Below are positions 1,440 to 28,136 of a stretch of 64,000 bases of DNA, piece by piece. The DNA comes from Roseibium sediminis (GTDB taxonomy: Bacteria > Pseudomonadota > Alphaproteobacteria > Rhizobiales > Stappiaceae). The position numbers and the translations under genes are program-made. The DNA is taken from assembly GCF_008711325.1 (NCBI RefSeq), contig NZ_VXDB01000014.1, positions 62,001 through 126,000 on the forward strand, given 5' to 3'. Position 1 is the first letter of the stretch. Every line of letters begins with the position of its first letter. The notes under the pieces were generated by a model. That model was not told the DNA's origin and made no database searches. It saw only the letters and a list, made by a program, of their open reading frames with translations.

Positions 1440-1443
1440 GTTC

Positions 1444-8185: not shown

Positions 8186-8437
8186 ATGAACGATATTGTC
8201 CGCGAGTTGCTCGCCAAGCATGGAAGCCTGCCGGTTTCCGTGGACCAGATTTCTGATGATGCCGATCTATATGATGCCGGGCTGTCCTCCTTTGCCTCCG
8301 TTCAGCTGATGCTGGCTCTGGAGGAGCATTTCGATGTGGAGTTTCCCGAACACCTTCTGAACCGGAAGTCGTTCTCTTCGGTGGAAGCCATCGTAGCTGC
8401 TCTTGCGGAGATCACCGGCGACCAACAGGCAGCCTGA
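8186..8437 (+). CDS. Acyl carrier protein (aminoacyl acceptor)
   Basis: An 83-residue acidic four-helix carrier protein. The phosphopantetheine serine is predicted at Ser35 in DAGLSSFASVQ, which resembles the carrier proteins paired with amino acid:[carrier protein] ligases rather than the DSL motif of fatty-acid AcpP. It is the first gene of a five-gene operon (8186-14045), so it is probably the acceptor loaded by the ligase encoded at 9628. The next gene starts 2 bases after its stop. It follows a 200-base intergenic gap that should hold the promoter. Confidence 0.9.
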   Translation: MNDIVRELLAKHGSLPVSVDQISDDADLYDAGLSSFASVQLMLALEEHFDVEFPEHLLNRKSFSSVEAIVAALAEITGDQQAA

Positions 8438-8439
8438 CC

Positions 8440-9624
8440 ATGACAGCAGCAGGGCCGGTAACGGCATCAAGCTTATCAGACCGCGCGACGCGGGTTGCCA
8501 AGAGTGCTTCGGAGTGGGCAGACAAGGTTGATCGAGAGGCACGGTTTCCTGCCGAAGCACTGTCCGCATTGAAGGCCGAGCGGCTGATGGGCGTCATGAT
8601 CCCGGCGGAATTTGGCGGCGAAAACGCGTCACTGACCGAAGTTGCCGATATCTGCGTCATTCTCGGACAGGCCTGCGGCTCTGCCGCAATGGTCTACGCG
8701 ATGCACCAGATCCAGATCGCCAGCCTGTGTGGCTATGCCGTGGGCAGCGGTTGGCATGAAGACCTGCTGCGCCGGATCTGTGATGAACAGTTGCTGATCG
8801 GGTCGGCTACAAGTGAAGCAGGCGGGATTGGCGGAAACCTCCGCAACTCGATCTGTGCCATTGAGAGCGAGGGCGATCGCATTCGCCTGGAAAAGGACGC
8901 GACCGTCATTTCCTACGGCGAAGCGTCCGATGCGATCATGGTGACCTCGCGCCGCCACGCGGAGGCTGCCGCCGGAGATCAGGTCTCCACCGTATTCATG
9001 AAAGACCAGTACACACTGGAAAAGACGTCCAACTGGGACACGCTCGGCATGCGAGGGACCTGTTCCGACGGGTTCATTTTCCGCGGAGAGGGGAGCAAGG
9101 AACAGATCCTGCCGCGTCCCTTTGCTGAGATCGCCGCACAATCGATGCTGGCGGTTTCGCATCTGCTATGGAGCGCGCTGTGGTACGGAATTGCCGTTGA
9201 CGCGTTCAACCGTTCCCAGTCCTTCGTCAAGGCGGCTGCTCGCAAGAACCCGGGGCAGACACCTCCCGGAGCCCTCCGTGTTGCCGAGGCCGCAAATCTG
9301 CTTCAGCAGATCAAGGGCAATGTGGTGTCCGGCCTGAAGCAGTTTGAGCAGGCGAAAGGAAATCCCGACGCGCTGAATGCCATGAGCTTTGCGGTTGCCA
9401 TGAACAACATCAAGGTGGGGACGTCCCAGTCGATCCTGACGGTGATCAACCATTGCATGCTGATCTGCGGGATCATGGGATACAAGAACGGAACGCCCTA
9501 CAGTCTTGGTCGCCATCTGCGTGACGCCCATTCGGCTCAGCTGATGATTTCCAACGACCGTATTCTCGGCAATACGTCCAACATGCTTCTGGTCAACAAG
9601 CCAGATCCCAGCCTGGCAGGATGA
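8440..9624 (+). CDS. Acyl-CoA dehydrogenase-like flavoprotein
   Basis: A 394-residue flavoprotein of the acyl-CoA dehydrogenase fold, with the N-terminal helical domain, central beta domain (TSEAGGIGGN near residue 125 in the usual substrate/FAD loop) and C-terminal helical bundle. At the place where many family members carry IYEGT with the catalytic glutamate, this protein has ILGNT, so the usual base is missing; the base may be elsewhere, as in isovaleryl-CoA-type and prolyl-carrier dehydrogenases. Lying between a carrier protein and an aminoacyl-carrier ligase, it probably oxidises a carrier-bound aminoacyl group rather than a fatty acyl-CoA. That role is inferred. Confidence 0.88.
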   Translation: MTAAGPVTASSLSDRATRVAKSASEWADKVDREARFPAEALSALKAERLMGVMIPAEFGGENASLTEVADICVILGQACGSAAMVYAMHQIQIASLCGYAVGSGWHEDLLRRICDEQLLIGSATSEAGGIGGNLRNSICAIESEGDRIRLEKDATVISYGEASDAIMVTSRRHAEAAAGDQVSTVFMKDQYTLEKTSNWDTLGMRGTCSDGFIFRGEGSKEQILPRPFAEIAAQSMLAVSHLLWSALWYGIAVDAFNRSQSFVKAAARKNPGQTPPGALRVAEAANLLQQIKGNVVSGLKQFEQAKGNPDALNAMSFAVAMNNIKVGTSQSILTVINHCMLICGIMGYKNGTPYSLGRHLRDAHSAQLMISNDRILGNTSNMLLVNKPDPSLAG

Positions 9625-9627
9625 GGC

Positions 9628-10536
9628 ATGAGTTCATCGAAATCATTTCTGGACCAGCTGTTTGAAAGCCGCATCCTGCATGCCAGCGGGGTGGACGGTC
9701 TTTATGCGCGAAGTGGTACGTTCGAGGATGTGGTCAGCCGCTTTGAGACATTTGCGCTGACTTTCGGCGAGCACGAGATCACCGAAGCCATGGTGTTCCC
9801 GCCCGGCATGCCCATGGCAGACTTTGAGACCAGCGGCTACATGAAGAACTTCCCGCAGTTGGCGGGGACCGTCCATGCATTTTGCGGCGGCGACCATGAT
9901 CACATGGGCCTGTTGCAATGTATGGCAGCGGGCGAGGACTGGACCAAGGGGCAGGAAGCAACCCAGGTCGCGCTCATCCCTGCGGCCTGCTATCCACTCT
10001 ATCCGATTCTGGCGAGGCGTGGCGCTCTGCCGGAGAACGGGGCCTATGTCGCCTTGCAATCCTACTGCTTCCGGCATGAACCCTCGAAAGATCCTGCGCG
10101 CATGCAGATGTTTCGCCAGCGGGAATATGTGCGTGTTGGAACCGAGGACCAAGCGATGGCCTTCCGGGAGACCTGGAAGGAACGCGGTCAGGAAATGATG
10201 AAGCGCCTGTGTCTGCCGCATGAGGTCGATATTGCCAATGATCCCTTCTTCGGTCGGGGCGGACGCATGATGGGGGCCAGTCAGCGTGAGCAGGCTCTGA
10301 AGTTCGAGATGCTGGTTCCGATCAATTCGGTTGAAAGCCCCACCGCCTGCATGAGCTTCAACTACCACATGGACAATTTCGGAAAGGCCTGGGACATCAA
10401 GCTTCAGGACGGGTCGCCGGCCCATACGGCCTGTGTCGGTTTCGGCCTTGAGCGGATCACCCTCGCGCTCTTCCGCCATCACGGGCTTGATGTTGCCGCT
10501 TGGCCGGAAGACGTCCGCAAGGCCCTTTGGGGTTAA
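9628..10536 (+). CDS. Amino acid--[acyl-carrier-protein] ligase (class II aaRS-like)
   Basis: A 302-residue stand-alone catalytic core related to atypical seryl-tRNA synthetases, with no tRNA-binding arm. Such proteins activate a small amino acid with ATP and load it on the phosphopantetheine arm of a carrier protein. Class II motif 2 is seen at CFRHEP (147-152) and motif 3 at GFGLERIT (271-278). Cys121 (PAACYPLYP), Glu166 (RQREYV) and Cys269 (HTACVGFG) have the spacing expected for the zinc site that binds the amino group. The dedicated carrier protein is two genes upstream, as in characterised Bradyrhizobium and Agrobacterium loci. The amino acid (glycine or alanine in known cases) cannot be told from the sequence. 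Confidence 0.9.
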
Positions 10537-10539
10537 GCC

Positions 10540-11538
10540 GTGTCACACGCCATTTTCCCGGACATCGATCCCGCGACCTATCAACGCCACGCCCTTCATT
10601 CGGCAGAGCGCGACTGGCCGGAGACCAACTGCTATCTGGATGTCTGGATCGAACTGTTGAACGCGATGGGCCTTCCGCCGGAGGCCTGTCTGGGGTCCAT
10701 GATCACGCAGGACTTTGAAGGTGATCAGTTCACCTTCTTCAAGGTACCTTTGGAGGACCTTGAAACCCTGTTCGGCATTCGGGTCACCGAGCTTGCGATC
10801 TATGACCGCGTTGAGGTTCACGTTCTTGAGCAGCTCGCACGGGGCCGTCTGTCACTTGTCGAAGTCGACAGCTTTTTCTTGCCGGATACCCAAGGCTTCG
10901 GTTATCGCCAGTTCCATGGCAAGACGACGATTTCGGTGAACCGTCTCGACCTTGATGCCCGCAGGATGGATTATTTTCACGGCCTGTCCCACTACCGGGT
11001 GGAAGGGGATGATGTTGACGGCATTTTCCAGCGGGGGGACCACGCCCGGGACTTGCCGTTCATGCCGTATACGGAGTTCGTGAAACTTCCGGAGACCTTC
11101 CCCGAGACCGGGCAAATTGCCGACCGGGCCTTGCATCTCCTTCATCACCACATGGCGCGGCGACCGGCTGAAAACCCCATCAAAGCCTTTGCAGCTGTTC
11201 TGCCGCATCAGGTGAGCCAGCTGTTAGACAAGCCCTTTGAAGCCTTCCATCTTTATGCCTTCAACACGTTGCGCCAGCTTGGGGCAAATTTCGAGCTGTT
11301 CGCAACGCATCTCGAATGGCTTGGTGCACATGGGGCAGGAGAGTTTGGACAGGCCGCAGAGCATGCTCGCCAGATTTCCAAAACCTGCAAGACAGCGCAG
11401 TTCCAGCTGGCCCGTGCAGTGACGCGCAAGAAGACCGACAAACTTGAAATACTGCTGGAGTCTGCCGTTGAAGCCTGGGACAACCTCGTTCAGACTCTGG
11501 ACACTGTCCTTGTGTCCAAACAGGCCGCCGCTTCGTGA
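10540..11538 (+). CDS. DUF1839 family protein
   Basis: A 332-residue cytoplasmic protein starting with GTG 3 bases after the ligase gene. No signal peptide or membrane helix is visible. It resembles the DUF1839 family, which tends to occur beside amino acid:carrier ligases and has no established activity. Its N-terminal half includes a possible Cys/His-containing core (ETNCYLDVWIELL), with conserved-looking HGKTTISVNRLD near residues 128-140. Its position suggests that it acts on the aminoacyl-carrier thioester, for example as a transferase, but this is inference. Its stop overlaps the GTG start of the next gene. Confidence 0.75.
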   Translation: MSHAIFPDIDPATYQRHALHSAERDWPETNCYLDVWIELLNAMGLPPEACLGSMITQDFEGDQFTFFKVPLEDLETLFGIRVTELAIYDRVEVHVLEQLARGRLSLVEVDSFFLPDTQGFGYRQFHGKTTISVNRLDLDARRMDYFHGLSHYRVEGDDVDGIFQRGDHARDLPFMPYTEFVKLPETFPETGQIADRALHLLHHHMARRPAENPIKAFAAVLPHQVSQLLDKPFEAFHLYAFNTLRQLGANFELFATHLEWLGAHGAGEFGQAAEHARQISKTCKTAQFQLARAVTRKKTDKLEILLESAVEAWDNLVQTLDTVLVSKQAAAS

Positions 11539-14045
11539 GCGATAACGCAATTCACCTGCCTGTCGTCTCTCCCCGAGGATGGGAGATCAGTCCGCCGGAA
11601 CAGGTTCTCTCCGGAGGATGGAGATTGCTTGTAACGTGCGCGGGGGAATATGCAGATGCGTCGCTTCTGCCCGCGACGGGTGATTGGATCCCGGCACCGG
11701 TTCCGGGCACCGCTGCAAAGGCGCTTGCTGAGGCAGGGCGCTTTGATCCCGCTGATCCCTTGCCGCTGCATGACAAGGATATCTGGTACGTCACAAGTTT
11801 TCGGTCCGAGCAGTCCGGACCACGCCGGTTGGTCTTCGGTGGTCTGGCGACACTTGCAGAAGTTTATCTGAACGGGGAAAAGGTTCTAGCGAGTGAAACC
11901 ATGTTTTCAGCGCAGGAGGTCTGCGCGCGGGTCGAGGAAAACAATACGTTCGCCATAGTCTTTCGGGCACTGGAGCCAGAACTTAGCCGCAAAGGGCCAA
12001 GGGCCCGATGGAAGACGCAGCTGACCCCGTCACAGGGCCTTCGCCACCTCAGAACGACGCTGCTTGGCCACATGCCCGGCTGGTGTCCGGATGTGCACGC
12101 GGTCGGTCCGTGGCGTCCAATCACCCTTCATGAAGTGGATGCCCCGTGTCTGCGCGATCTCGCGATCAGGGCGGATCTCGCACATGATGGCACCGGACAT
12201 CTCTATGTCTCTTTTGATTGGAACAAGATCGGCGAAACCGCGATCGTTGAATGCGCGGGCCGATCCGTGATGCTTGAAGCTCGGGCGGACGGGAAAGTGG
12301 CTGGCGAGTTGTCTTTGCCGGGCATTGAGCCGTGGATGCCTGCAACGCACGGAAACCCGGCCCTTTACGACATCTGGCTGGGTTTTGGCGGGCAAAAGAT
12401 GCATCTGGGAAAGACCGGGTTCCGCAGGATCGAGGTGGATCGCGGCTCGGATGCGAAGGGCTTTGGGCTTCATGTGAATGGCGTGCCGGTATTCTGCCGC
12501 GGAGCTGTCTGGACCACCGCTGATCTCGTCGGCTTGTCGGGTGATACCGACACTTGTCGCCCGCTGCTGGAGCTGGCGCGGGATGCAGGCATGAACATGC
12601 TACGCATCGGCGGTACGATGGTCTATGAAAGCCGCGCGTTTTTCGATCTCTGCGCGGAACTGGGCATCATGGTCTGGCAAGACTTCCAGTTCGCCAATTT
12701 CGATTATCCGGTCAGCGATGTACCGTTTTCAGCCGCGGTCAAAGCGGAAGCGGACCACCAGCTCACTCTCTTGCAGGGCAATCCCGCGCTGACCGTTCTG
12801 TGCGGGGGCAGCGAAATCTATCAGCAAGGCGCGATGATGGGTTTGCCTGAAAGTCGCTGGCGCGGTGAGCTGACGCGCACGGTGCTTGCTGACTGCAGCC
12901 AAGAGCGAAGACCGGATGTACCTTATGTGGAGAACGCCCCCTGCGATGGGGCCATGCCGTTTTCCTCCAATGAGGGCATAGCGCATTATTACGGCGTTGG
13001 GGCTTATCGGCGGCCTCTTGAGGATGCCCGCCGGGCTGATGTCCGCTTTGCAGCTGAATGTCTCGGCTTTTCCAATGTGCCGTCCGCGCAATCCCTCACG
13101 GAGTTCGGTCTCGCAACGCCGCATGGCCCGGGCTGGAAGGCCGGTATTCCGAAGGATCGCGGCGCGGACTGGGACTTTGAGGATATTCGCGACCATTACC
13201 TCAAGACCTTGTACGGAATAGAACCGGAGGCGTTGCGGCGGGAGCGCCCTGACCGGTATCTCGATCTGTCGCGGTCCGTGGTTGCCGACATTCTGGAGGC
13301 CACGTTTGCAGAGTGGCGGCGGCAAGAAAGCAGCTGCAAGGGGGCTCTGGTCTGGAACTTTCAGGATGTTCGGCCCGGCGCCGGGTGGGGAATGCTGGAT
13401 GTGGCAGGGCGGCCCAAGGCGTCCTATTTTGCGCTCAAGCGAGCCTTTCGCCCGCTGCAAGTCAGCCTGACCGATGAAGGCACAAACGGCCTGATGGTTC
13501 ACCTCGCTAACGAGACACCGAACGAACGACATGTGCAGTTGGAATTGACCTGTCTGCGAGACGGGCGATTGCCGGTGGTCAGGGGCGCGCGGGACCTCAC
13601 CCTTGCATCCCGGGATGCTCTGACAATTGCAGCAACAGACATCTTTGGCGCGTTCTTCGATACCACATATGCGTTTCGGTTCGGCCCGCCGTCTCATGAC
13701 GTGACCTTTGCGCGTTTGACAGATCAGGCAACAGGTGAACTGCTTGCCGAAGCCACCTATTTTCCTCTCGGGTTTTTTGACGAAAAACACCCGCTGGAGC
13801 TGGACTGCACTCTCACAGAACGCGACGACGGGACATGGGAGCTGGAGCTGGAAACACAGCGCAGCTGGCGCTTTGTCCAGATCGACTGTCCCGGGTATCG
13901 TTCTTCCGACGACGGGTTCCATCTGCATCCCGGTGCAGCACGAAAGATCCATCTCTCCCCTGAGACTGCATCGGTAACGTCCTCGCGCCCGAAGGGAGCG
14001 CTCAGGGCCTTGAATGCGGACAATGCGGTGGTGTTTTCCGGATAA
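11535..14045 (+). CDS. Glycoside hydrolase family 2 / beta-mannosidase-like protein
   Basis: An 836-residue protein with the GH2 layout: a jelly-roll sugar-binding domain (about 1-170), an immunoglobulin-like domain (about 190-300), a TIM barrel (about 310-650) and a C-terminal beta domain. The expected acid/base is Glu427 in LCGGSEIYQQ (the family usually has GNNE) and the nucleophile Glu523 in SLTEFGLATP. No signal peptide is seen, so it should be cytoplasmic. The GTG start is within the preceding stop (GTGA), giving translational coupling to the aminoacyl-carrier genes, which is an odd partnership for a glycosidase. It may process or transfer a sugar acceptor. The family call is firm, the substrate unknown. 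Confidence 0.85.
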   Translation: MSDNAIHLPVVSPRGWEISPPEQVLSGGWRLLVTCAGEYADASLLPATGDWIPAPVPGTAAKALAEAGRFDPADPLPLHDKDIWYVTSFRSEQSGPRRLVFGGLATLAEVYLNGEKVLASETMFSAQEVCARVEENNTFAIVFRALEPELSRKGPRARWKTQLTPSQGLRHLRTTLLGHMPGWCPDVHAVGPWRPITLHEVDAPCLRDLAIRADLAHDGTGHLYVSFDWNKIGETAIVECAGRSVMLEARADGKVAGELSLPGIEPWMPATHGNPALYDIWLGFGGQKMHLGKTGFRRIEVDRGSDAKGFGLHVNGVPVFCRGAVWTTADLVGLSGDTDTCRPLLELARDAGMNMLRIGGTMVYESRAFFDLCAELGIMVWQDFQFANFDYPVSDVPFSAAVKAEADHQLTLLQGNPALTVLCGGSEIYQQGAMMGLPESRWRGELTRTVLADCSQERRPDVPYVENAPCDGAMPFSSNEGIAHYYGVGAYRRPLEDARRADVRFAAECLGFSNVPSAQSLTEFGLATPHGPGWKAGIPKDRGADWDFEDIRDHYLKTLYGIEPEALRRERPDRYLDLSRSVVADILEATFAEWRRQESSCKGALVWNFQDVRPGAGWGMLDVAGRPKASYFALKRAFRPLQVSLTDEGTNGLMVHLANETPNERHVQLELTCLRDGRLPVVRGARDLTLASRDALTIAATDIFGAFFDTTYAFRFGPPSHDVTFARLTDQATGELLAEATYFPLGFFDEKHPLELDCTLTERDDGTWELELETQRSWRFVQIDCPGYRSSDDGFHLHPGAARKIHLSPETASVTSSRPKGALRALNADNAVVFSG

Positions 14046-14046
14046 A

Positions 14047-15780
14047 TCAGGTGCCGGGCCGGGCTGTTGCCAGATCTTCGAGCTTGTCGAAAAGGGCAAG
14101 CCTTGCAGGCCGAGGCGTCAGGTTATGGTCGGCACCCGGAAGGATCATCAAGGATGTGTTCGGATAGGCTGCGAGCCCCTTTTGACCCTTGCCGAAATAC
14201 AGCGCGAGCTGCTCAAGGCTCTGATCTGCATCACTGCAAACGAAGTGCATCGCAACATCACGTTCTTTAAGTGCGCGGAACATCTTGTGGCATTCGGCGC
14301 GAAACCGGGCGTGTTTCGAGATATTCGGAAAGATCGGTGCCAAGAGATGTGACAGTCGGGTTTTCGCATGGCTGCCAAGACCGCGAAGAACGCCCGGAAT
14401 GGAAATGTCACCCGTAACGAGGCGCTTGAGTGTTTTCGGATCGACAAAGCGCTTCTTGTAATCGCCCATGGATCTCGGGCCCATGCGGGCCGGGTCGGTG
14501 AGACTTTCCTCCGGGTCCCAGATCAGGCGAACCTGATTGCAGAGCAGCAGCTGGCTGATCCGGTCATCCCGATAGGCCGCGTGAAAGGCGGTGTAGGCTC
14601 CGCTGCATCTGCCAACCAGGGTGATCGGGCCTTCGTGACGCTTGCGAAGGAAATCCAAGATGGCATGCGTGTCGAGAATTGGTCCGTCCGAATATAGAAC
14701 CTGTTCCGGCGCTCCGTCCTGCGGGCCGCTGTCGCCGATATTTGCGAAGTCGACGCGCAGCGATACAGCGCCCTTGGCCGCAAGGCGTCTTGAGGCATCG
14801 ACCCACGCGCGCGCCCAGCCGCCGTGGTGGTCATAGCCTGAATTCAGGAAGACAAAGACCGGGGCATTTTGGGTGATTGCCCTGGGGCGGCATTCGATTG
14901 CGTAAAGCCCCGGTGCCTCGCCGATGTAATGCCCTTCTTCCTGAAAGTCTGACCCGTCAAGAGCGGCTGCCGGGGGAGGCATATTTTCGGTCCGTCGGTT
15001 TGGTCTGGAGTTGCTCTCCGCACACCAGTCAGCAATCTCGTCAAGGAGAGTGTGGGGAATAACCGAAGCTGTAGGGTCCTCCATCAACCGGTCATAGCCG
15101 ACAAAGGAAAGTTCATCGATTTTGCTTCCGCTCTCTCTCAAACCTGATGAAAACTGCTGGTCAGCGTCAATGCCGGGGCGGGCGACGACAAGGGACGGTT
15201 TTGTTGTCGATGGCGTTGTGGCGGATTTGATGTCGGAGACCAGCCGGTCGTCCATCACCAGCCCGGCGATCGAGGTGGCATCCTTTGCAAGAGCAGTTTC
15301 CGGCAACCCCAAGCCTTCGATGATCACTTTGGCGCGAAGGGTTGTTTCGCGGAAATAGCGCCGCGGACTTGTCACAGGAGCCGCATGGACAACACTGCGA
15401 ACAGAAGGGTGGTCGGCGAGAAGGCCTGCAATAAAGCTCCCGAGGCCAAAGCCGAAAAGAACCACATCCTTGCATCCACTCTGGCGCTTCAGCAATTCGA
15501 TCCCGGCTTCTGCCGCCGCTAACCAGCTTTCAAGGCTTTGGCCTTCAGGTGGATCAAGGGCATCCACGGTTCCCGGATAATCGAACCGCAGGGAGGTCAT
15601 CCCCTTTGCAGCAAGGCGTTCGGCGAGCGCCCTGAAGAACTTGCGGGTACAAAGCTCGTCAAACCCCCAGGGGCGCAGCAAAAGCACGCTGGTTGCAAGC
15701 CGATCTTCTGAGGGCGGAAAGGTGAGGATGCCGTGGCATCCGGCGAAAGCGACCGGAAGGGTGTTAGAGGCGGCACTCAT
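14047..15780 (-). CDS. Tandem alpha/beta hydrolase with altered nucleophile elbows
   Basis: A 577-residue protein made of two alpha/beta-hydrolase domains (about 10-250 and 290-570). In the first, the nucleophile elbow reads GFGLG (110-114) with Gly112 in place of the nucleophile, so it is probably inactive. In the second, the elbow is GRCSG with Cys392 at the nucleophile position; a candidate acid (SDADQS) and histidine (GADHNL) follow near the C-terminus, so a Cys-Asp-His triad is possible. It resembles hydrolases associated with polysaccharide/exosortase loci. Its start overlaps the flippase stop (ATGA), so both are one operon. Its 3' end abuts the convergent GH2 gene. Confidence 0.8.
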   Translation of the reverse strand: MSAASNTLPVAFAGCHGILTFPPSEDRLATSVLLLRPWGFDELCTRKFFRALAERLAAKGMTSLRFDYPGTVDALDPPEGQSLESWLAAAEAGIELLKRQSGCKDVVLFGFGLGSFIAGLLADHPSVRSVVHAAPVTSPRRYFRETTLRAKVIIEGLGLPETALAKDATSIAGLVMDDRLVSDIKSATTPSTTKPSLVVARPGIDADQQFSSGLRESGSKIDELSFVGYDRLMEDPTASVIPHTLLDEIADWCAESNSRPNRRTENMPPPAAALDGSDFQEEGHYIGEAPGLYAIECRPRAITQNAPVFVFLNSGYDHHGGWARAWVDASRRLAAKGAVSLRVDFANIGDSGPQDGAPEQVLYSDGPILDTHAILDFLRKRHEGPITLVGRCSGAYTAFHAAYRDDRISQLLLCNQVRLIWDPEESLTDPARMGPRSMGDYKKRFVDPKTLKRLVTGDISIPGVLRGLGSHAKTRLSHLLAPIFPNISKHARFRAECHKMFRALKERDVAMHFVCSDADQSLEQLALYFGKGQKGLAAYPNTSLMILPGADHNLTPRPARLALFDKLEDLATARPGT

Positions 15781-17324
15781 GGCTTCGCATCGTCTTTGCG
15801 AGACACCAGAAGCAGGAGAACGGCAATGCTCACATCACGCAGGCGCTGCGGAATGATATCCGGCAGGTTTCCATCAAGAGCCAGGACATCACCGATTGGA
15901 ATGCATCTGAACAGGCGCAGGGACACGAGATAGGCAGCCGCTCCTGCCAGAATGGCAAGGCACAGCCCGACAAAGCCAGAATAGGCGACGAGCGTCAGGT
16001 GGGCAGCGAGTGCGCAGGCTGCCCCGGAGAGAAGCAGTTTTGCCATGTTCGCCAGATCAAACCGCACGCTCAAGCGATGCCAGCAATACCACAGAAGCCA
16101 CCCAAGCCAGATGGAGTGAATGGCTGCGCGGGTCCATGCCGCGCCAATGCCGCCCCAATTGGGAACGACCATGGCGAGAGCTGCGACGGAGACGACGGCC
16201 AGAATGGGTGTCGAATACAGAAAGAACGACGAATGCTCCCGCGCACTTACGGTCAGCGAAGGCACCAGGGAGAGGGCGGTGGCAAGGGCGGAGGCGACAA
16301 TGATGATCGCCATTGGAATTGCCGGAGTGAACTCGGAACCAAACAGCAGCGGCAGCAATTCGGGAATGACCGCCGCTCCGCCAAAGCAAACCGGGATCAT
16401 CAGCAAGGTTATCCAGCGCAAGACCCGTTGGTAGGTTGTGTTGATGCGGGTAAGGTCGTTGTTGTCGTGATGCTTGCCCATGTGAGGGGTAAGCGCGGCA
16501 ACCATCTGCGCAGGCAGCTGCACTACAAGGCTGGCTAGGGTCAGGCCTGCAGCGTAGTAACCGATGTCGGTCGTTGAGAAATACAGGCCGAGAAACAGGA
16601 TTTCGATGCGTCCCCAGATAAGCAGCCCCATACCATCCGAGAACCATTCGTTGCGGCCATGCGCTCGCATGCGCGGTTCCACTTCGACATCGTCTGCCGG
16701 GCGATGGCGAACATACTTGAAGATCTTGAGGGCTTGCGGAATGTAGCGCGCCACATAGCCGGCGAGCGCACCGGGTACGCCGAAGAAATATCCGCCGAGA
16801 AGGACGAGCGGGAGCTGGAAAAGGCAGCCGATGAAGACAAGGCGCCCCGTTTCGTCAAACCTGTTCAGCCCGCGAGCGGCAGCTTCGGCCACCGAGGCAA
16901 TGCTGAAAACCAGAAACAGGACCGCAATCATCAGCCATGTGTCGGGCGAATAGGTGTAGTCACTTCCGCTGGCATGCAACCAAACACCGTAGCCTGCGAA
17001 TCCAATCGTGGTGAGACTTACCGGAATAGCGAAATTTGGAAGGAGCACGCGTGTGAGGCCGCCGCCGGGGTTGCCGGGCCTGTCGAAGCCCGCCATGTAG
17101 CGGTTGAGGATGTGCGGGACACCGAAATTCGCCACGAGCGTCGTTGTTGTGGCCAGCCATAGCGAGAAGGCGATGGCGCCACTGCCTTCGGCGCCGAGTA
17201 GACGCGCAACGGCAATGCTGCAGAAAAATCCGAAAGTAAGGGAAACGATACCGGCCAGAGTGCTGAGTGCCGAGGCTGAAATGAAACTGGCCATGGATCT
17301 GTGTCGGAATACTCGGAGAAACAA
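15777..17324 (-). CDS. Polysaccharide flippase (Wzx/MOP superfamily)
   Basis: A 515-residue integral membrane protein with about 12-14 predicted helices and the layout of oligosaccharide flippases (ISASALSTLAGIVSL at the N-terminus, RLLGAEGSGAIAFSLW just after). It should move undecaprenyl-linked repeat units across the inner membrane. It lies 47 bases after the GT2 gene upstream on the same strand and overlaps the hydrolase gene downstream. Lipid II flippase MurJ is unlikely, given the context and weak resemblance. Confidence 0.88.
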   Translation of the reverse strand: MFLRVFRHRSMASFISASALSTLAGIVSLTFGFFCSIAVARLLGAEGSGAIAFSLWLATTTTLVANFGVPHILNRYMAGFDRPGNPGGGLTRVLLPNFAIPVSLTTIGFAGYGVWLHASGSDYTYSPDTWLMIAVLFLVFSIASVAEAAARGLNRFDETGRLVFIGCLFQLPLVLLGGYFFGVPGALAGYVARYIPQALKIFKYVRHRPADDVEVEPRMRAHGRNEWFSDGMGLLIWGRIEILFLGLYFSTTDIGYYAAGLTLASLVVQLPAQMVAALTPHMGKHHDNNDLTRINTTYQRVLRWITLLMIPVCFGGAAVIPELLPLLFGSEFTPAIPMAIIIVASALATALSLVPSLTVSAREHSSFFLYSTPILAVVSVAALAMVVPNWGGIGAAWTRAAIHSIWLGWLLWYCWHRLSVRFDLANMAKLLLSGAACALAAHLTLVAYSGFVGLCLAILAGAAAYLVSLRLFRCIPIGDVLALDGNLPDIIPQRLRDVSIAVLLLLVSRKDDAKP

Positions 17325-17371: not shown

Positions 17372-18298
17372 TTAATTTTCCGAACCCAGAAGCCGTCTCA
17401 GGATGCGCTTCCTGACGATGCGACTGGTCGCCACGAGCCGAAGCATCGCCACGAAATCCCGCTTCGCCTTGGCTCGATGGAATGCCCCGATGGGCGCCAT
17501 CTGGTCGAAGTCTTCGATGCGGCGGTCCAGCGCCTCAAGCTCTTCCGGTGACATCCGGTCTTCCATGTCAGTGCGGAGTTGGCGCAAGGCGGACAGGAGT
17601 GCCGTGGTGTCAGCGGAGCTGCGCGAATGGGGCGAAGCAACCTTGCTAAGAGGGCCGACTGGCAGGGCGTAGACATAGAGCGGTTCTTTGACATACAGCA
17701 CCCGCGCGCCAGAAAGCAGGATCTGCAAGTTCAAAAGCAGGTCTTCGCCTGCCCGAATGCTCTCATTGTAACGAATGCCGTTCTCTTCAAGAAAGGACCG
17801 TCTGATCAAAGGTTGGAGATAGCCGAGATCATGTTCGCCCTCACGGCGCGCGCGCACAAAGTCGCTGAAGGTGAGCGGGCCGGTTTCGCGGTCAAGATAG
17901 ATTGCCCCGGTTTGAGTTTTCGCGGTTGCATCGTAGCCCATGATGTTATCGGCAATGAAGTCGGCAGTTTCGGATTGTTCGAGCAGATGCGATAGCCGGT
18001 TGGGAAGCCACCAGTCATCGGAATCAAGCAAACCGATCCACACGCCGGTTGCGGCATCGAGCGCAGCATTTCGGGCAGCCGATGGCCCCATGTTGCGGGC
18101 AAGACGGATCAGCTTCACCCGTGGTTCGTTGCCATAGCGGTCCTGAACCTCGATATACGTGCCGTCCGTCGAGCCATCATCCACGACGATGACTTCGACG
18201 GCATGTCCCTTTTGTTCAAGGGCGCTGTCAATTGCAGTCGCAATGCAGGCCTTTGTGTTAAAGCACGGTATAATCACAGAGACATCTGGTGCTTGCAT
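17372..18298 (-). CDS. Family 2 glycosyltransferase
   Basis: A 308-residue GT-A fold transferase. It opens with SVIIPCFNTKACIATAIDS and contains the nucleotide-sugar motif VVDDGSTDGT and the DSDDWW metal-binding region (DxD) near residue 95. I chose the ATG at 18298, which places the fold 5 residues from the N-terminus; the frame also extends to 18334. It is the first gene of the minus-strand GT2-flippase-hydrolase operon and is divergent from the deacetylase at 18412 across about 110 bases. Donor and acceptor sugars cannot be told. Confidence 0.9.
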   Translation of the reverse strand: MQAPDVSVIIPCFNTKACIATAIDSALEQKGHAVEVIVVDDGSTDGTYIEVQDRYGNEPRVKLIRLARNMGPSAARNAALDAATGVWIGLLDSDDWWLPNRLSHLLEQSETADFIADNIMGYDATAKTQTGAIYLDRETGPLTFSDFVRARREGEHDLGYLQPLIRRSFLEENGIRYNESIRAGEDLLLNLQILLSGARVLYVKEPLYVYALPVGPLSKVASPHSRSSADTTALLSALRQLRTDMEDRMSPEELEALDRRIEDFDQMAPIGAFHRAKAKRDFVAMLRLVATSRIVRKRILRRLLGSEN

Positions 18299-18411
18299 CA
18301 GGCACTCGCCAAGGGATTGTCGGAAGACTATCAAGGAACCAGTGGTTCTATACCGCTGCGGATCGTTTCCGCAAATGAAGGATTGCTCACAGTCGTGAAA
18401 TTGGCAGCTAG

Positions 18412-19530
18412 ATGTCGCATTTTTTGAGAAACTTGAGACGTGTCGGTCGGGAGATCAGGGATGTGCCGCTTGGGCAACTCCCCGAAACCCTGACCGGTTT
18501 TGCAAAGCCTAAACTCGAAAAGGCATTCGAGGAGGCACTCTACAGGTCTGGCCTCATGGCCTTCTCAAGTCGTCGCTTTTCAGGTCTCGGCATTGCACTG
18601 ATGTTCCACGAGATTCAGGATGATGTAGAAGGCGAGCTTTACACCGGCTGCCCTCAATCCCAGCTGGCCCGCATCCTTGCCGAGGTGAAGAAATCCGGGC
18701 GCGAGATCGTCACCATCGAGGAAGGGCTGCAGCGTCTGAAAGACCCGGCAAACTCCAAGCCCTTTGCCTTGTTGACCTTTGATGACGCCTATCGGGACAA
18801 CCTGTCCAACGCACTTCCGGTTCTGGAGGACGCGGCAGCTCCCATGACGCTGTTTGTGCCAACGGGAATGATAACCCGCCAAATTGACACTTGGTGGTTG
18901 GGCTTGCGGGACCTCTTGCGTGTGAACCAAGAGCTGCATTTCCCGCCCATGGACCGTCTTTTCAGATGCACGGACCTTCTGGAAAAATCAGCGGCTCTTC
19001 GGCAGATTACGGCCTGGATTGGCACTGACCAGTCAAGGGCGGAGCAGCTTGGCAGCTTTCTCTCGGCGTTGGGCATTGACGGGCCAGCCCTTGTCGACCG
19101 CTATGCCATGGACCGGGAGACCTTGCAGGCCTTTGCAGCTCATCCGCTGGTGACTATCGGCGCTCATACGGACACCCATCGCATCCTTTCTGCACTCGAC
19201 GACGAGACAGTTCTGACCGAATTCGTTTCCAACAAGGCGTTTCTTGAAGAGTTGACCGGTGTTGAAGTCAGCTATCTGGCTTACCCCTATGGAACGGAAG
19301 GGGCATGCGGATTGCGGGAGGCCGACATGGCAGCAAGAGCGGGGTTCAAGGGAGCCTTTACCACGCGCCCCGGGCACCTGTTCCCCGAACATCTCTCATC
19401 GCCATTTCTGTTGCCGAGAATTGATGTCGGCTATTTTCCGCAAAGGCAATCGGCTCTGGCCAGTCGGCTGACCGGCTTTCAGCGTGCGCGGCTGACGCGC
19501 TGGAGGGAACCGGTGGCGACCTTAACCTGA
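18412..19530 (+). CDS. Polysaccharide deacetylase (NodB-fold)
   Basis: A 372-residue protein with a carbohydrate esterase family 4 core. The metal-binding Asp-Asp is in LLTFDDAYRDN (about residues 122-132), the His pair in TIGAHTDTH (about 245-253), and the later conserved YLAYPYGT segment near 285. No signal peptide is seen, so it may act on a cytoplasmic or membrane-bound intermediate, removing N-acetyl groups from hexosamines. HfsH of Caulobacter holdfast synthesis plays that role; the comparison is by analogy. Its 3' end overlaps the convergent GT4 gene by 9 bases. Confidence 0.88.
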   Translation: MSHFLRNLRRVGREIRDVPLGQLPETLTGFAKPKLEKAFEEALYRSGLMAFSSRRFSGLGIALMFHEIQDDVEGELYTGCPQSQLARILAEVKKSGREIVTIEEGLQRLKDPANSKPFALLTFDDAYRDNLSNALPVLEDAAAPMTLFVPTGMITRQIDTWWLGLRDLLRVNQELHFPPMDRLFRCTDLLEKSAALRQITAWIGTDQSRAEQLGSFLSALGIDGPALVDRYAMDRETLQAFAAHPLVTIGAHTDTHRILSALDDETVLTEFVSNKAFLEELTGVEVSYLAYPYGTEGACGLREADMAARAGFKGAFTTRPGHLFPEHLSSPFLLPRIDVGYFPQRQSALASRLTGFQRARLTRWREPVATLT

Positions 19531-20550
19531 GGCACGGGTGCGAAGTATGTCCTCATAAAGTGCGACGTGCTTTTGCGCGATTGTTGACCAATCGAAGCGG
19601 TCCGCGATTTGGCTTGCCCGGCCACGGAGCTCCTTCAGGCTATCTTCGGACACGCCTTGCCCGAACAGCAGGTCAGCCGCCTGTTCCGGCGTATCCGCTT
19701 GAAGTGAGTTTTGACGGATCCAGTCCGGGGTGGCATCGCCGTATCTTGTGACCAGCGTACAGCCATTCACCAAAGCTGCAGCCATGCTGCCCCTGCGTTC
19801 ATCCGCTCCAGAGGGAAAAGGAAGATAGGCGAATTCATGCGCAGCAAGCTGGCGGGCGACTTCGCTTGCCGGAAGATCGATATGCAGCGCGAACCCGATT
19901 TCTTCCGCCTTTGATCGAATATGATCGAGGAAGGCTTCCTTTCCGGCCACGGGTGCCCCTATTACCGATAGGCTCGCGGGATCGATGCCGGCTTTCTTTG
20001 CCAATTCAGCGAACGTGATGAAGTCTTCAAGGCCCTTCCCCGGCCAGAACAGGCCGAAATAGGCAACACTGCTCCGCCGCCGCTCCACTCCGTCAGCCTT
20101 TGGAATATTGCTGCCGATGGGAATGATATGGTCCTGTCCCTTTCGGGTCGGGTAACTTTTTGCAAACCGGTCCAGTTCTTCGGTGCGCGAAAACACCCGC
20201 GCAGCCATCTTCAAGGCGATCGGCGCAAACACGAACCGCCAATAGCTGCGGTAAATCTGAAACTCGTGCAGTGTAATTACCGTCGGGCAATCGAGCTTGA
20301 GGTATCCTGTGGTTGCAGGAAGGAGCGAGCGTTTGTACCCGATGCTGGGATATTGGACATGCACAATGTCCGGCGCACTTTGCCTGAGGGCGGCCCTGTA
20401 ACGACCAGCATTGAAGATAGACCAGTCGTCCATGGCAATCCGGTCGACTTGAATTCCCTTATGCTCAAGGGCATTGGACAGCTGACGCGCGTAGTCGCCA
20501 ACGCCGCATTTGCCTTCAGTCCAAGTTCCTGAAACCAGAGCTACTTTCAT
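19522..20550 (-). CDS. Family 4 glycosyltransferase
   Basis: A 342-residue GT-B fold transferase. The N-terminal Rossmann domain starts MKVALVSGTWTEGKCGVGDYA, with the acceptor-side motif VHVQYP near residue 65; the C-terminal domain has VAYFGLFWPGKGLEDF and EFAYLPFPSGADERRGS in the donor-binding region. The usual EGFG-type E-x7-E motif is partly replaced by the latter segment. It lies 18 bases after the stop of the GH5 gene's neighbour on the same strand, so the two are probably co-transcribed. Confidence 0.87.
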   Translation of the reverse strand: MKVALVSGTWTEGKCGVGDYARQLSNALEHKGIQVDRIAMDDWSIFNAGRYRAALRQSAPDIVHVQYPSIGYKRSLLPATTGYLKLDCPTVITLHEFQIYRSYWRFVFAPIALKMAARVFSRTEELDRFAKSYPTRKGQDHIIPIGSNIPKADGVERRRSSVAYFGLFWPGKGLEDFITFAELAKKAGIDPASLSVIGAPVAGKEAFLDHIRSKAEEIGFALHIDLPASEVARQLAAHEFAYLPFPSGADERRGSMAAALVNGCTLVTRYGDATPDWIRQNSLQADTPEQAADLLFGQGVSEDSLKELRGRASQIADRFDWSTIAQKHVALYEDILRTRASG

Positions 20551-20568
20551 AGAAAACTGCCGAAATTC

Positions 20569-21657
20569 CTATTGTTCGCGAACCGGCTGCTGAAGAGCGG
20601 CGCAATTGTCCGGTTCTGAAATCACCGGCTTCCAATAGGCAGAAAGCAGCTTTGTCTGCGGGCGGTCTCCAGCTTCGGTCGGTTGTAGGGACAGGTAGTA
20701 GTCCCCCCACCATTCGCCGGCAGCCCAGGCCGTCCAGCCGATCCACACATCGCTGTTTCGATTGAGGTAAAGGATCACTTCTGCCATGCCTTGCAGGCAG
20801 TCGGGCGAGCTGGTGCCGCCAAATTCGCCCAGAAATCCAACGTAGCCTTTGTCTCGAAACCAGCCCTCGACACGGCGGAGGGCCGCGATCGCGTCATCCG
20901 TTCGCGGGCAGGTCAGGTTCGTGCCGGAGAAATTCTCGTCGAGATATTGATGGATATCGAAAACATAGTTGTTCAACGGGTCCACAACGCCAGTCAGAAG
21001 ATCCGCATTTGAGCCGCCCTCCTGCTCGTCAAACCAATGCACTGCACCGGTCCACAGGGTGCCCGGCACCATGATCATGTTGGACGCACCGGCCTTGCGA
21101 ATGGCGGCAATGGACGCATTCGTCGCCTCAAGCCACGTTGCGGCGGTGACCTCGATCGGTTCGTTCATCAGGAGGTAGATCACGTCGTCCCGGTTGGCAA
21201 AAAGAGGCGCAAGTCTCGCCCAGAAATCGGCGAATGCCTCAATCGTGACATTCCCGGTGCCGATCTTGTGCAAACCATATTCGGCAAAATTGTGTGGGCT
21301 GAGGACGACTTTCATGCCCCGTGCCGTAATGCGCTCCACCACGTCCGTCAGGCGGCCAAGTTCGTCTGCATCAAACGGCGCATGCAGCGAGGTCTGCAGG
21401 CGCTCCCATCTGAATGGAAACCGGACCGTGTTGACGCCAAGACCCGCAAAATGATCAAGCGTTTCATCGGTCGGGTAGATGTAGTTTGTCCCGAAAACAC
21501 CCGGAAGACTGCCGAACTCTGCCCCGGCGATGTTAACGCCGCGCAGGCATGTCATGGCCTGCGCAGGACCTGCACCAAGCATGGCAAGGCTCAATAGCGC
21601 ACACATGGCGCGCACCGAAATCGCGCGCAAGAGACGGCTTGGTTTCAAATGGCTCAC
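20569..21657 (-). CDS. Secreted family 5 glycoside hydrolase (cellulase-like)
   Basis: A 362-residue secreted GH5 enzyme with a signal peptide (residues 1-34, cleavage after GPAQA). The catalytic acid/base is Glu166 (LLMNEP) and the nucleophile Glu278 (FLGEFGG); the GH5 core around RGVNIAGAEFG and NTVRFPFRWERL is also present. It probably cleaves a beta-glucan in the periplasm or outside the cell. Embedded among glycosyltransferases, it may trim the polymer made by this locus rather than serve nutrition. It is 18 bases upstream of the GT4 gene on the same strand. Confidence 0.92.
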   Translation of the reverse strand: MSHLKPSRLLRAISVRAMCALLSLAMLGAGPAQAMTCLRGVNIAGAEFGSLPGVFGTNYIYPTDETLDHFAGLGVNTVRFPFRWERLQTSLHAPFDADELGRLTDVVERITARGMKVVLSPHNFAEYGLHKIGTGNVTIEAFADFWARLAPLFANRDDVIYLLMNEPIEVTAATWLEATNASIAAIRKAGASNMIMVPGTLWTGAVHWFDEQEGGSNADLLTGVVDPLNNYVFDIHQYLDENFSGTNLTCPRTDDAIAALRRVEGWFRDKGYVGFLGEFGGTSSPDCLQGMAEVILYLNRNSDVWIGWTAWAAGEWWGDYYLSLQPTEAGDRPQTKLLSAYWKPVISEPDNCAALQQPVREQ

Positions 21658-21752
21658 CGGTTGTTAGTCGCGGGTCTGGTCCAGCCCCCATGGCGGACGG
21701 GCAGACCCAATGGCTTATCGGGTTGGGTATAATGACCATAGGTTGAAAAACG

Positions 21753-23144
21753 TTACCATACCCTTTGACCAGTAACCTGATGAAGGCGTTTCTCTTCTCC
21801 TTCGAAGCTGTCCGGGTTTGGGGCAGGTTCAAGGTTTGTCATCAGCCGCCGCGCGGCAAGGATACCGACAAGTGCGAACAGGATCCCGCCGAAAGCCTGT
21901 CCCGCCAGAACACCTGCGGCCCCTGCGAAAGAAGCACCAAGCAGCACAAAGGGCAATGTGCCAATCGTATGACGTGCCCAGTTCAGTGCGGTGGAGTAGA
22001 TCGGTTTGCCCAGATTGTTGAAGCTGGCGTTGCAGACAAACAATGCCCCATTAAAGAATTGCAACAAGGCAAGCGGACCACAAAACAGGAACAGAAGCGC
22101 CGCCATCTCTCCGGTCGCGTTAAACATTCCGGCAATCAGATCCCGCAGCAGGAACAAAAGCACCGAGACGAAGAGCACATAGAGACCGACAAACAGCAAT
22201 CCGTCGAGAAAGGCGCGACGGACGCGGTCAAGGCGGCCCGCTCCGAAATTCTGGCCGATAATCGGCCCAATCGCGCCGGAAAGGGCAAGGACGACAGCAA
22301 AGGCCAGCGGCGTCAGGCGGCCGATTACCGCCATGGCAGCAACAGCATCAGTGCCGTATTTCGCCATTTCACGTGTCACGATCGCGTTGCCGACCGGCGT
22401 GGCCAGATTGGTCAGAACCGCAGGGCCGGCAATGGCCAGCATGGGGCGGAGGTCCTGTGAAACCGCAGAAAGCGAGGGGCGTGCATAGCCGTTGCATCGG
22501 GAAACCACCAGCCAGATGCCGCCTGCCATCATGAAGGCACGTGCAACAACCGATGCATAGGCTGCCCCGTCCAGCCCAAGATCCAGCCCGAAGATCAGGA
22601 TCGGATCGAGGATGGCGTTGACGACACCGCCGCCCAGTGTTGTCAGCATGGAGGCCTTTGCAGCTCCATAGGCCCGCAGGACCGCCATGGAGGTCATCGC
22701 AAGACCCATGCAGATCATGGTTGGCAGGATGATGGTGCAGTATCGTGTGGCAAAATCCAGTGTCGCCCCTTCCGCACCCAGAAGGCTGAGGATTGATGGC
22801 AAATTCGGGACCACCACCATCGGAACCAGCAGGGACACCAAAGCAGCAAGCATGGCAACGGAAGTGGCAAGCCTGCGGGCTCGTTCTGCTTCATAGGCGC
22901 CAATCGCCCGGGCGACGAGGCTACCTGCTGCAATGGAAAGACCGATATTGATCGAGTTCGTGAAAAAGAGGAGTGTCCCAGCATACCCGACTGCGGCAGC
23001 CAGCTCTGCTTTCCCAAGCATGGCAATGAACATCACATCCACGAAATCGACAGCAAAGACGGCCAGAATGCCGATTGAGGCAGTCGAGGACATGACAGCA
23101 ACGTGCCGCATCAGGTTGCCAGTGAGGAAAACGGCTTGGGACAT
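21753..23144 (-). CDS. MATE family efflux transporter
   Basis: A 463-residue membrane protein with about 12 helices in two homologous halves, typical of the MATE/NorM family. These are Na+ or H+ driven exporters of cationic or other small molecules. It lies within the polysaccharide locus but need not belong to it. The nearby flippase is from the same MOP superfamily, so a lipid-linked sugar substrate cannot be excluded. It is divergent from the GT4 gene at 23255. Confidence 0.9.
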   Translation of the reverse strand: MSQAVFLTGNLMRHVAVMSSTASIGILAVFAVDFVDVMFIAMLGKAELAAAVGYAGTLLFFTNSINIGLSIAAGSLVARAIGAYEAERARRLATSVAMLAALVSLLVPMVVVPNLPSILSLLGAEGATLDFATRYCTIILPTMICMGLAMTSMAVLRAYGAAKASMLTTLGGGVVNAILDPILIFGLDLGLDGAAYASVVARAFMMAGGIWLVVSRCNGYARPSLSAVSQDLRPMLAIAGPAVLTNLATPVGNAIVTREMAKYGTDAVAAMAVIGRLTPLAFAVVLALSGAIGPIIGQNFGAGRLDRVRRAFLDGLLFVGLYVLFVSVLLFLLRDLIAGMFNATGEMAALLFLFCGPLALLQFFNGALFVCNASFNNLGKPIYSTALNWARHTIGTLPFVLLGASFAGAAGVLAGQAFGGILFALVGILAARRLMTNLEPAPNPDSFEGEEKRLHQVTGQRVW

Positions 23145-23254
23145 GACGGGTTCCCTGAAGGTTGGGTGAAAATGCGGCGGCGAAAGGAACTGTTCAATTA
23201 TGGTCTATACAAGCCGTGACAGGTTTGGCCACGGCATATTTCGCGAAGGACGCA

Positions 23255-24421: not shown

Positions 24422-24445
24422 CGCTGTCCGGTCCTTATGGCTGCG

Positions 24446-27824: not shown

Positions 27825-28125
27825 TCACTTCCATCATCAAGATCTGCGGAGGCACTTTGGGACCCTGACCTGCTCATGCCTCCGGTTGACAACCGAAGTG
27901 CGTGGCAAACGCCGCAAACATTCCATCCCCATGTATCCCTGATCATGATTAACAGAGTGCAAATGTCTCGCTCAATGGTTGCAAAATCTACGAAGTTCAA
28001 TAAATAGGAAAAGAGGAATATGATCTTGCTCTCTGCAAGGGAAGGTTGCCGTCAACGCTGTCACGGTCGAAGGAGAATTTCGGAGATCCGTGCAACCGTT
28101 GATTAACCACCGTAGATGTTAACAC
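27825..28125. other. Divergent intergenic region, copolymerase / WecG-type gene
   Basis: About 300 bases without a gene between two divergent polysaccharide genes, so promoters for both directions should lie here. The right half (27950-28140) is AT-rich compared with its surroundings and ends in the GATGTTAAC direct repeat. I see no RNA gene. Confidence 0.5.
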
Positions 28126-28136
28126 GTGATGTTAAC
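28115..28136 (+). repeat. Direct repeat GATGTTAAC x2 at the start of the WecG-type gene
   Basis: Two identical copies of GATGTTAAC at 28115-28123 and 28128-28136, 13 bases apart start to start. The second copy contains the candidate ATG start. A repeat of this spacing could bind a regulator, which would argue for a downstream translation start. Confidence 0.5.

Follow-up and report, generated by a model that had tools for sequence, protein, structure and literature searches.

What is made by a gene cassette that encodes a carrier protein, a flavoprotein, an amino acid:[carrier protein] ligase, a member of family DUF1839, and a glycoside hydrolase of family 2 (GH2)? The question is raised by a 64,000-nucleotide stretch of the Roseibium sediminis genome (assembly GCF_008711325.1, contig NZ_VXDB01000014.1, positions 62,001 to 126,000), hereafter the window, in which five linked genes on the forward strand occupy positions 8186 to 14045. 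The first encodes a carrier protein of 83 residues with its phosphopantetheine site at Ser35 (8186..8437; PF00550, NF005480). It is followed by a 394-residue flavoprotein of the acyl-CoA dehydrogenase (ACAD) fold, lacking Glu at two known base positions and probably an oxidizing enzyme (8440..9624; PF02771), and by the 302-residue ligase, a class II synthetase core carrying Cys121, Glu166, and Cys269 (9628..10536; NF005479). The last two genes encode the 332-residue DUF1839 protein, predicted to be a papain-fold amide synthase of the CcbD/CtaG type with Cys31 as candidate nucleophile (10540..11538; PF08893), and a beta-mannosidase-like GH2 protein of 836 residues with Glu427, Glu508, an SE motif, and no Trp at position 359 (11535..14045; PF22666, PF17753). 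According to the list of open reading frames (ORFs), the spacing along the cassette is 2, 3, and 3 bases, followed by a 4-base overlap.

The answer argued for here, to which we give a probability of roughly one half, is that the cassette is a single operon for an aminoacyl amide, probably oxidized, built on a sugar; the sugar would most likely be an amino sugar in an intermediate of a cell-surface polysaccharide. Both the operon and the idea of an amide on a sugar were published in 2010, and the discovery of the operon is itself not new.

Conservation of the cassette as a unit

Three sets of genomes or loci were examined: an order sample of 150 genomes that includes the window's own, a phylum sample of 299 genomes that shares genomes with the order sample, and a set of named loci comprising the best 80 of at least 568 relatives. 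In the order sample, DUF1839 was found in 18 genomes. The ligase scored above its cutoff in 26, all 18 DUF1839 genomes among them, and the cassette GH2 (688 bits or more) occurred in exactly those 18, all remaining GH2 matches with E up to 1e-30 reaching at most 154 bits. Each of the 17 loci outside the window's genome encodes carrier protein, ACAD-fold flavoprotein, ligase, DUF1839, and GH2 in the same order on one strand. Because DUF1839, the ligase, and the cassette GH2 share the same 18 genomes, and because order and strand are kept in 17 of 17 loci, the five genes are a conserved unit rather than a chance arrangement.

The other two sets agree. In the phylum sample, 12 genomes have DUF1839; the ligase occurs in 21, among them every one of the 12, and the genomes with the cassette GH2 are again those 12. 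Eight of the nine loci newly taken from this sample have all five genes; the ninth, close to a contig end, is a second DUF1839 copy in a single genome, G388. Among the 80 named loci, 76 have the five genes in order, two are cut by contig ends, and two lack the ligase only. A first-pass annotation of the window had described the tightly spaced, partly overlapping genes and expected them to co-occur elsewhere, and on both counts it is borne out.

Spacing was analyzed in the loci with a DUF1839 ORF, 93 in number, with some genomes entering twice, once from each of two sources. Five complete ORFs were available in 61 of them, or 40 once near-identical ones were removed. Every gene pair lies on the same strand in 61 of 61 loci, and gaps of no more than 60 bases separate the successive pairs in 61, 59, and 55 loci, respectively, for the last three pairs and in all 61 for the first; ORF starts were taken as the longest possible, so that these gaps are lower bounds. 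Pairwise distances of the genes correlate across the 40 non-redundant loci (Mantel r 0.75 to 0.92, reached by 0 of 999 permutations), a correlation that shared species descent alone would produce.

A CcbD-type fold predicted for DUF1839

The DUF1839 protein matches PF08893 at 418.3 bits, against a gathering cutoff of 22.5, and searches by phmmer and by profile returned no solved relative. The relationship reported here was found by structure model only. With the AF2 (AlphaFold2) model (pLDDT 93.3, pTM 0.92) as query, Foldseek returned 18 PDB chains with E up to 1e-3, of which three belong to AziU3/U2, eight to CtaG, and seven to CcbD. CcbD tops the VIA-align list, with Z 20.1 and 3.5 Å over 291 residues, a match that covers model residues 15-328, nearly the full length including the helical C-terminal part, at an identity of 10 to 12% across the structural alignment. 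AziU3/U2 and CtaG come next, with Z from 16.0 to 18.7, after which the next other entry falls to Z 9.0 and aligns residues 191-331 only. At E up to 1e-3 there was no match to BtrH_N (PF14399), PF08893 alone being reported.

Residue counts for this family come from 36 chosen sequences, several with shortened ends. Asn30, His126, Tyr145, His147, Asp158, and Arg292 are conserved in all 36, and Asp144 is found in 21. Cys31, present in 35, starts a model helix (31-42) and was matched to the CcbD-type Cys by secondary structure alone. Sequence counts near the C-terminus also single out basic residues, with Lys284 in 34 of 36 and Arg296 in 35 beside the invariant Arg292; they are candidates for a basic patch that would face the carrier protein. 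Accessible text of PMC12945683 describes how CcbD takes carrier-bound proline on its Cys and delivers it to a thiooctose, at the amino group. DUF1839 is accordingly placed, as a prediction from the modeled fold, with the papain-fold carrier-dependent amide synthases of the CcbD/CtaG type; in the literature accessible to us we found no work linking DUF1839 to CcbD.

In the pathway that we infer, the ligase would activate a small amino acid, which by analogy would be glycine or alanine, and load it onto the phosphopantetheine of Ser35 in the carrier protein. The flavoprotein would then oxidize the loaded aminoacyl group, oxygenation, for example at nitrogen, being somewhat likelier than classical dehydrogenation. 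DUF1839 would bind the charged carrier protein, take the acyl group on Cys31, and transfer it to a sugar amine in the manner of CcbD in the lincosamide pathway. The GH2 protein, probably cytosolic, may recognize the substituted sugar through a changed -1 site and trim or proofread it before or at export through the neighboring Wzx system. Much of this route had been sketched in the first-pass annotation. Its transfer step, from carrier to sugar by DUF1839, gains structural support from the CcbD-type fold; the route as a whole loses some ground to two Roseibium loci without a ligase, described below; its oxidation by the flavoprotein is still held probable, though doubtful in the sense of a dehydrogenation; and its inclusion of the GH2 protein rests on a link that has proved real, with a role in sugar handling that may be as supposed.

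Ligase, carrier protein, and a second genomic setting

The window ligase scores 486.1 bits against NF005479, above the curated cutoff of 357, and the solved ligase 4h2w/3mey, presumably of Bradyrhizobium origin, aligns with it at an E value of about 1e-87. Cys121, Glu166, and Cys269, which we take to be the zinc ligands of the catalytic core, are conserved in 85 of 85 homologs from DUF1839 loci and in 10 of 10 from loci without DUF1839, one distant row (L193) being set aside. To judge from its sequence, the protein is a clear member of the amino acid:[carrier protein] ligases (Mocibob 2010, 2013, as cited in the accessible part of PMC9437257). The carrier protein scores 114.7 bits against NF005480 (cutoff 72), and both Ser35, the site already marked by the first-pass annotation, and Glu46 are conserved in 76 of 76 rows, the window included. 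Loci without DUF1839 contributed one carrier protein sequence, too few to use.

The ligase family also occurs in a second setting. Twelve loci (L176-L187) with an above-cutoff ligase, each fetched at 15 to 20 kb, were taken from genomes without a DUF1839 match. The flavoprotein lies beside the ligase in 12 of 12 and a divergently transcribed carrier protein is near it in 9; neither DUF1839 nor the cassette GH2 was found in any of the twelve fetched stretches, and the downstream genes named there differ from locus to locus. Ligase and flavoprotein therefore belong together, and DUF1839 and GH2 have the look of a transfer module added to them.

A probably altered active site in the cassette GH2

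We compared 85 cassette GH2 sequences with ordinary GH2 paralogs, 16 at first and four more for a total of 20 distinct ones, with one repeat (L234, identical to L218) counted once. Glu427 and Glu508, presumably the acid/base and the nucleophile, are conserved in 85 of 85 and align with the catalytic-motif Glu residues of 2vjx. The residue before the acid/base is Ser426 in 84 of the 85, giving an SE motif. Position 359, where beta-mannosidases have Trp, is never Trp in the cassette set, being Gly in 64 (the window among them), Pro in 14, Ser in 5, and Ala in 2. In the ordinary paralogs the corresponding residues are Asn-Glu and Trp in 16 of 16, and the same holds in the four further distinct ones. 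The exo-glucosaminidase marker PF18368 turned up in one genome among 120, which is not enough to serve as a control; the GH2 concerned has SD at the motif. By the crude hydropathy threshold one of 85 cassette N-termini passes as hydrophobic, and no signal peptide is seen in the window protein, so the cassette GH2 is probably cytosolic; it may handle a substituted sugar inside the cell.

A similar site has been described for subfamily GH2_14. The accessible text of PMC12243196 gives it SE instead of NE and Gly instead of His/Trp near C2/C3 of the sugar, with a larger pocket that may admit substituted substrates; the two enzymes tested there were slow on p-nitrophenyl-beta-galactoside and had no detectable activity on mannobiose or mannotriose. 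Shared with the cassette protein is the SE motif; Gly359 of the window may correspond to the Gly that replaces His/Trp, a position matched by sequence only. In the same accessible text the two tested enzymes lack a signal peptide and the closest subfamily is that of the GH2_13 beta-mannosidases. The difference is that residue 359 is Gly in only 64 of the 85 cassette proteins; the likeness is drawn from the published description.

Weighing the proposal

Several observations weigh against the proposed pathway, and they are taken up here with the alternatives that they favor. The best placed of these keeps the pathway and makes the flavoprotein a true dehydrogenase, desaturating the carrier-bound amino acid (alanyl to dehydroalanyl, or glycyl to an imine). 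The predicted model has the ACAD fold, with Z from 38.4 to 40.9 against dehydrogenases and relatives in the 50 VIA entries shown; dehydrogenases hold the top rows, the oxygenases score 38.4 to 40.0, and KijD3 is last of the 50 at 38.4. Among the matches is ColB1 (7xp7, Z 40.0), an ACAD-fold enzyme titled as dehydrogenating an assembly-line-tethered cysteine. Dehydrogenases also head the profile search, and the top NCBIfam model is FadE16, whose 95.5 bits fall far below its cutoff of 600.

On the other side stand the residues, counted in 47 chosen sequences, several with shortened ends (L087 was dropped from the chosen alignments, as its stretch contains a stop). By profile alignment, Ile370 occupies the place of the YEGT base in all 47, while residue 240, at the alternative site on a helix, is Ser in 37, Ala in 9, and Thr in 1, never Glu; we take these two positions to be the known sites of the catalytic Glu in acyl-CoA dehydrogenases. 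Dehydrogenation is doubtful because there is no Glu at either, and the missing base would mildly favor oxygenation. The best PDB relatives by phmmer are KijD3 and DnmZ (8e-13), both acting on amino sugars, and Foldseek ranks the oxygenase TdsC first and KijD3 seventh. A glycyl group, moreover, has no beta carbon. Family scans found no reductase among the five cassette genes, and no search of the genome for a flavin reductase was made. Aravind and colleagues, too, guessed at monooxygenation for the redox enzyme, in the accessible part of PMC2922099. We hold a dehydrogenase to be a less likely but quite plausible reading of the flavoprotein. A narrower form of our proposal strikes us as decidedly unlikely in all its parts at once. 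Here a dedicated system would attach an N-oxygenated aminoacyl group (such as N-hydroxyglycyl or its oxime) to an amino sugar within a polysaccharide bound for export. A retired tRNA synthetase would do the loading, a flavoprotein akin to nitrososynthases would act on the carrier-bound amino acid, an amide synthase resembling lincosamide synthetase would make the transfer, and an intracellular GH2 enzyme would have been reshaped to recognize the sugar so modified.

The product might instead be a soluble aminoacyl-sugar metabolite, resembling a lincosamide or mycothiol, with GH2 processing a glycosylated precursor and the polysaccharide genes as mere neighbors. The nearest structural relatives of DUF1839 speak for this: CcbD serves a soluble small molecule rather than a polysaccharide, as CtaG and AziU3/U2 presumably do. 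So does the variability of the neighborhood. Among the 80 named loci, a two-domain hydrolase is near 58 by tblastn (55 by ORF search), GT4b near 36, Wzx near 26, and Wzc near 19. Neighbors were also clustered across the 93 loci with a DUF1839 ORF, giving 37 clusters present in at least 8 loci, of which five are the core and six were labeled as other window genes, the remainder being named by one representative each. Possible export genes recur in some loci (21 with an ABC-transporter ATPase, 10 with an efflux protein of the outer membrane). Immediately upstream of the cassette, many Rhizobium loci have genes related to elongation factor P (EF-P) rather than to sugars. As for the amino sugar that we propose as acceptor, it is a point against it that clusters which might supply or expose a sugar amine are few (polysaccharide deacetylase in 10, NagA-like in 9, SIS-domain in 9), and no single amino-sugar gene is general among the recurring clusters.

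Against a soluble product stand the recurring glycosyltransferases, flippases, and hydrolase, the last in places fused to a flippase. In the window this two-domain alpha/beta hydrolase is encoded on the reverse strand directly after the cassette (14047..15780), followed on the same strand by a Wzx-type polysaccharide flippase identified in family scans (15777..17324). The halves of the hydrolase are similar to the exosortase-locus hydrolases 1 and 2 (hydr1_PEP and hydr2_PEP), both below cutoff; our search of the literature on exosortase-type hydrolases found nothing relevant. Thirteen ORFs of about 1100 residues, 12 of them distinct (L019 repeats L106), join the hydrolase to the C-terminus of a Wzx-type flippase, as in L086:14710-18015 and L100:14717-18067, the domains of the latter confirmed by Pfam. 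These features suggest a place in polysaccharide synthesis at the lipid-linked stage, where the hydrolase would be a candidate extra part of the system. We consider a soluble product rather unlikely, and continue with an amide on a surface polysaccharide.

That proposal must also accommodate two Roseibium genomes that keep carrier protein, flavoprotein, DUF1839, and GH2, and in which genome-wide searches found no ligase (L042:8502-13521 in Roseibium denhamense and L058:8552-13468 in a Roseibium metagenome-assembled genome). Three sister genomes of the pair do carry the ligase. Either the ligase is dispensable there or these operons have changed their use; another loader may serve the two genomes.

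In a further alternative DUF1839 would not be an amide synthase but a hydrolase or an enzyme like a protease, which would attack glycans of the cell wall or remove carrier protein that has been mischarged. Accessible text of PMC10318531 places the family in the papain-like superfamily, reports a C(T/S)H arrangement for it, and suggests that it might process cell-wall glycans in an acyl-CoA-dependent manner. Our counts show conservation of Cys31, His126, and His147, with no acid matched to that of CtaG. One copy inside a cassette (L154), the exception in the Cys31 count, has lost both Cys31 and Thr117, and also Thr29. The structural comparison favors the synthase: peptidase-type papain folds in the VIA list reach only about Z 6 to 7, as against Z 20.1 over residues 15-328 for CcbD, and a crude hydropathy test finds no hydrophobic stretch at the N-terminus. 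We judge a hydrolytic DUF1839 quite improbable. Genome G388, which holds the L154 copy, encodes the second DUF1839 mentioned above (L146), in which Cys31 and Thr117 are kept and which shares a contig with the hydrolase (L200); perhaps the two copies form a pair like AziU2/U3.

One cassette GH2 (L201) keeps Asn at position 426. That the GH2 protein is a passenger, or an ordinary beta-mannosidase downstream by accident, is very hard to credit, for although its sequence lies on the beta-mannosidase side of GH2 (2vjx, E 3.6e-45), the subfamily is confined to DUF1839 genomes (18 of 18 in the order sample, 12 of 12 in the phylum sample), differs from the 20 distinct ordinary paralogs at positions 359 (85 of 85) and 426 (84 of 85), and has distances that track those of DUF1839 (Mantel r 0.85, a correlation that species descent also yields).

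Relation to known systems

The closest precedent is a note in proof by Aravind, de Souza, and Iyer (2010; PMC2922099), whose accessible part describes a neighborhood of StRS, ACP, monooxygenase, Atu2574, and glycosidase. It proposes that an amino acid is linked to a cell-surface sugar derivative at its amino group, with Atu2574 as the amide ligase, and that the redox enzyme modifies the aminoacyl group, probably by monooxygenation. By this description the gene set and the proposed role are the same as ours, and from gene context we infer that Atu2574 is DUF1839. That accessible part gives no fold for Atu2574, calls the redox enzyme a Rossmann fold, and offers no residue analysis of the glycosidase. 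The present analysis adds the CcbD-type fold, an ACAD fold without the base Glu, the GH2_14-like active site, the hydrolase partner, the two types of locus, and the counts. No later test of the 2010 proposal was found in the literature searched, which lay mostly outside subscription journals. One paper mentions Atu2573, and only for its hub position in an expression module.

Lincosamide synthetase (CcbC, CcbZ-CP, CcbD; LmbC, LmbN-CP, LmbD) shares with the cassette a stand-alone activation step, a carrier protein, and a cysteine-protease-like enzyme, and the type of its final product, an amide with an amino sugar, is the one proposed here, as far as the accessible parts of PMC12945683 and PMC4351081 describe it. 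Its loader is an adenylation domain, whereas that of the cassette is a relative of tRNA synthetases, and the cassette has in addition a flavoprotein, a GH2 protein, and a polysaccharide setting, with the low identity to CcbD given above. CtaG of closthioamide and AziU3/U2 of azinomycin share the fold of the DUF1839 model and perform carrier-dependent chemistry on substrates different from those of the cassette. We know of no operon of ligase, flavoprotein, and GH2 around either. In butirosin synthesis, BtrI, BtrJ, and BtrO supply a carrier protein, a loader, and a flavin monooxygenase acting on the loaded group. The papain-like acyltransferase BtrH, covered in the accessible text of PMC10318531, transfers to the aminoglycoside and would be the counterpart of DUF1839; the differences are the absence of a BtrH_N match in DUF1839, another acyl group, and a soluble antibiotic as product.

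The match between DUF1839 and CcbD makes the 2010 guess precisely testable. If the proposal is true, carrier chemistry of the antibiotic type decorates a surface sugar in many rhizobia and their relatives, and both DUF1839 and one GH2 subfamily gain a function.

Other neighboring genes

Beyond the hydrolase and flippase, the remaining polysaccharide cluster of the window occupies 17372..28989 on both strands and encodes a GT2 protein, a polysaccharide deacetylase, two GT4 proteins, a GH5 protein, MatE, Wzz/GNVR, and WecG. At gathering scores, Rfam returned no RNA element anywhere in the window.

Cellulose synthesis genes (BcsA-type, BcsB, BcsZ, TPR, and BcsN; window positions 30-7982) lie directly upstream of the cassette. 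A link to cellulose was considered and rejected: Bcs genes adjoin the cassette here, yet in the order sample the 17 remaining loci yield a single Bcs match, a 31% partial one to a BcsA-type glycosyltransferase (L024), and the neighbor tally of the 80 named loci contains none. Not being seen beside other cassettes, the cellulose neighborhood looks accidental.

Among the recurrent clusters of the 93 loci are a radical-SAM enzyme with a weak lysine-aminomutase match (37 loci), a class II relative of lysyl-type synthetases (34), and EF-P (30). This set of EF-P, an EpmA-like synthetase relative, and an EpmB-like radical-SAM enzyme, found upstream in 30 to 37 of the loci, is represented by L085:6388-7455, L115:5172-6236, and L081:4434-5237, one Pfam-named representative each; by its predicted families it is another amino-acid-attaching system beside the cassette.

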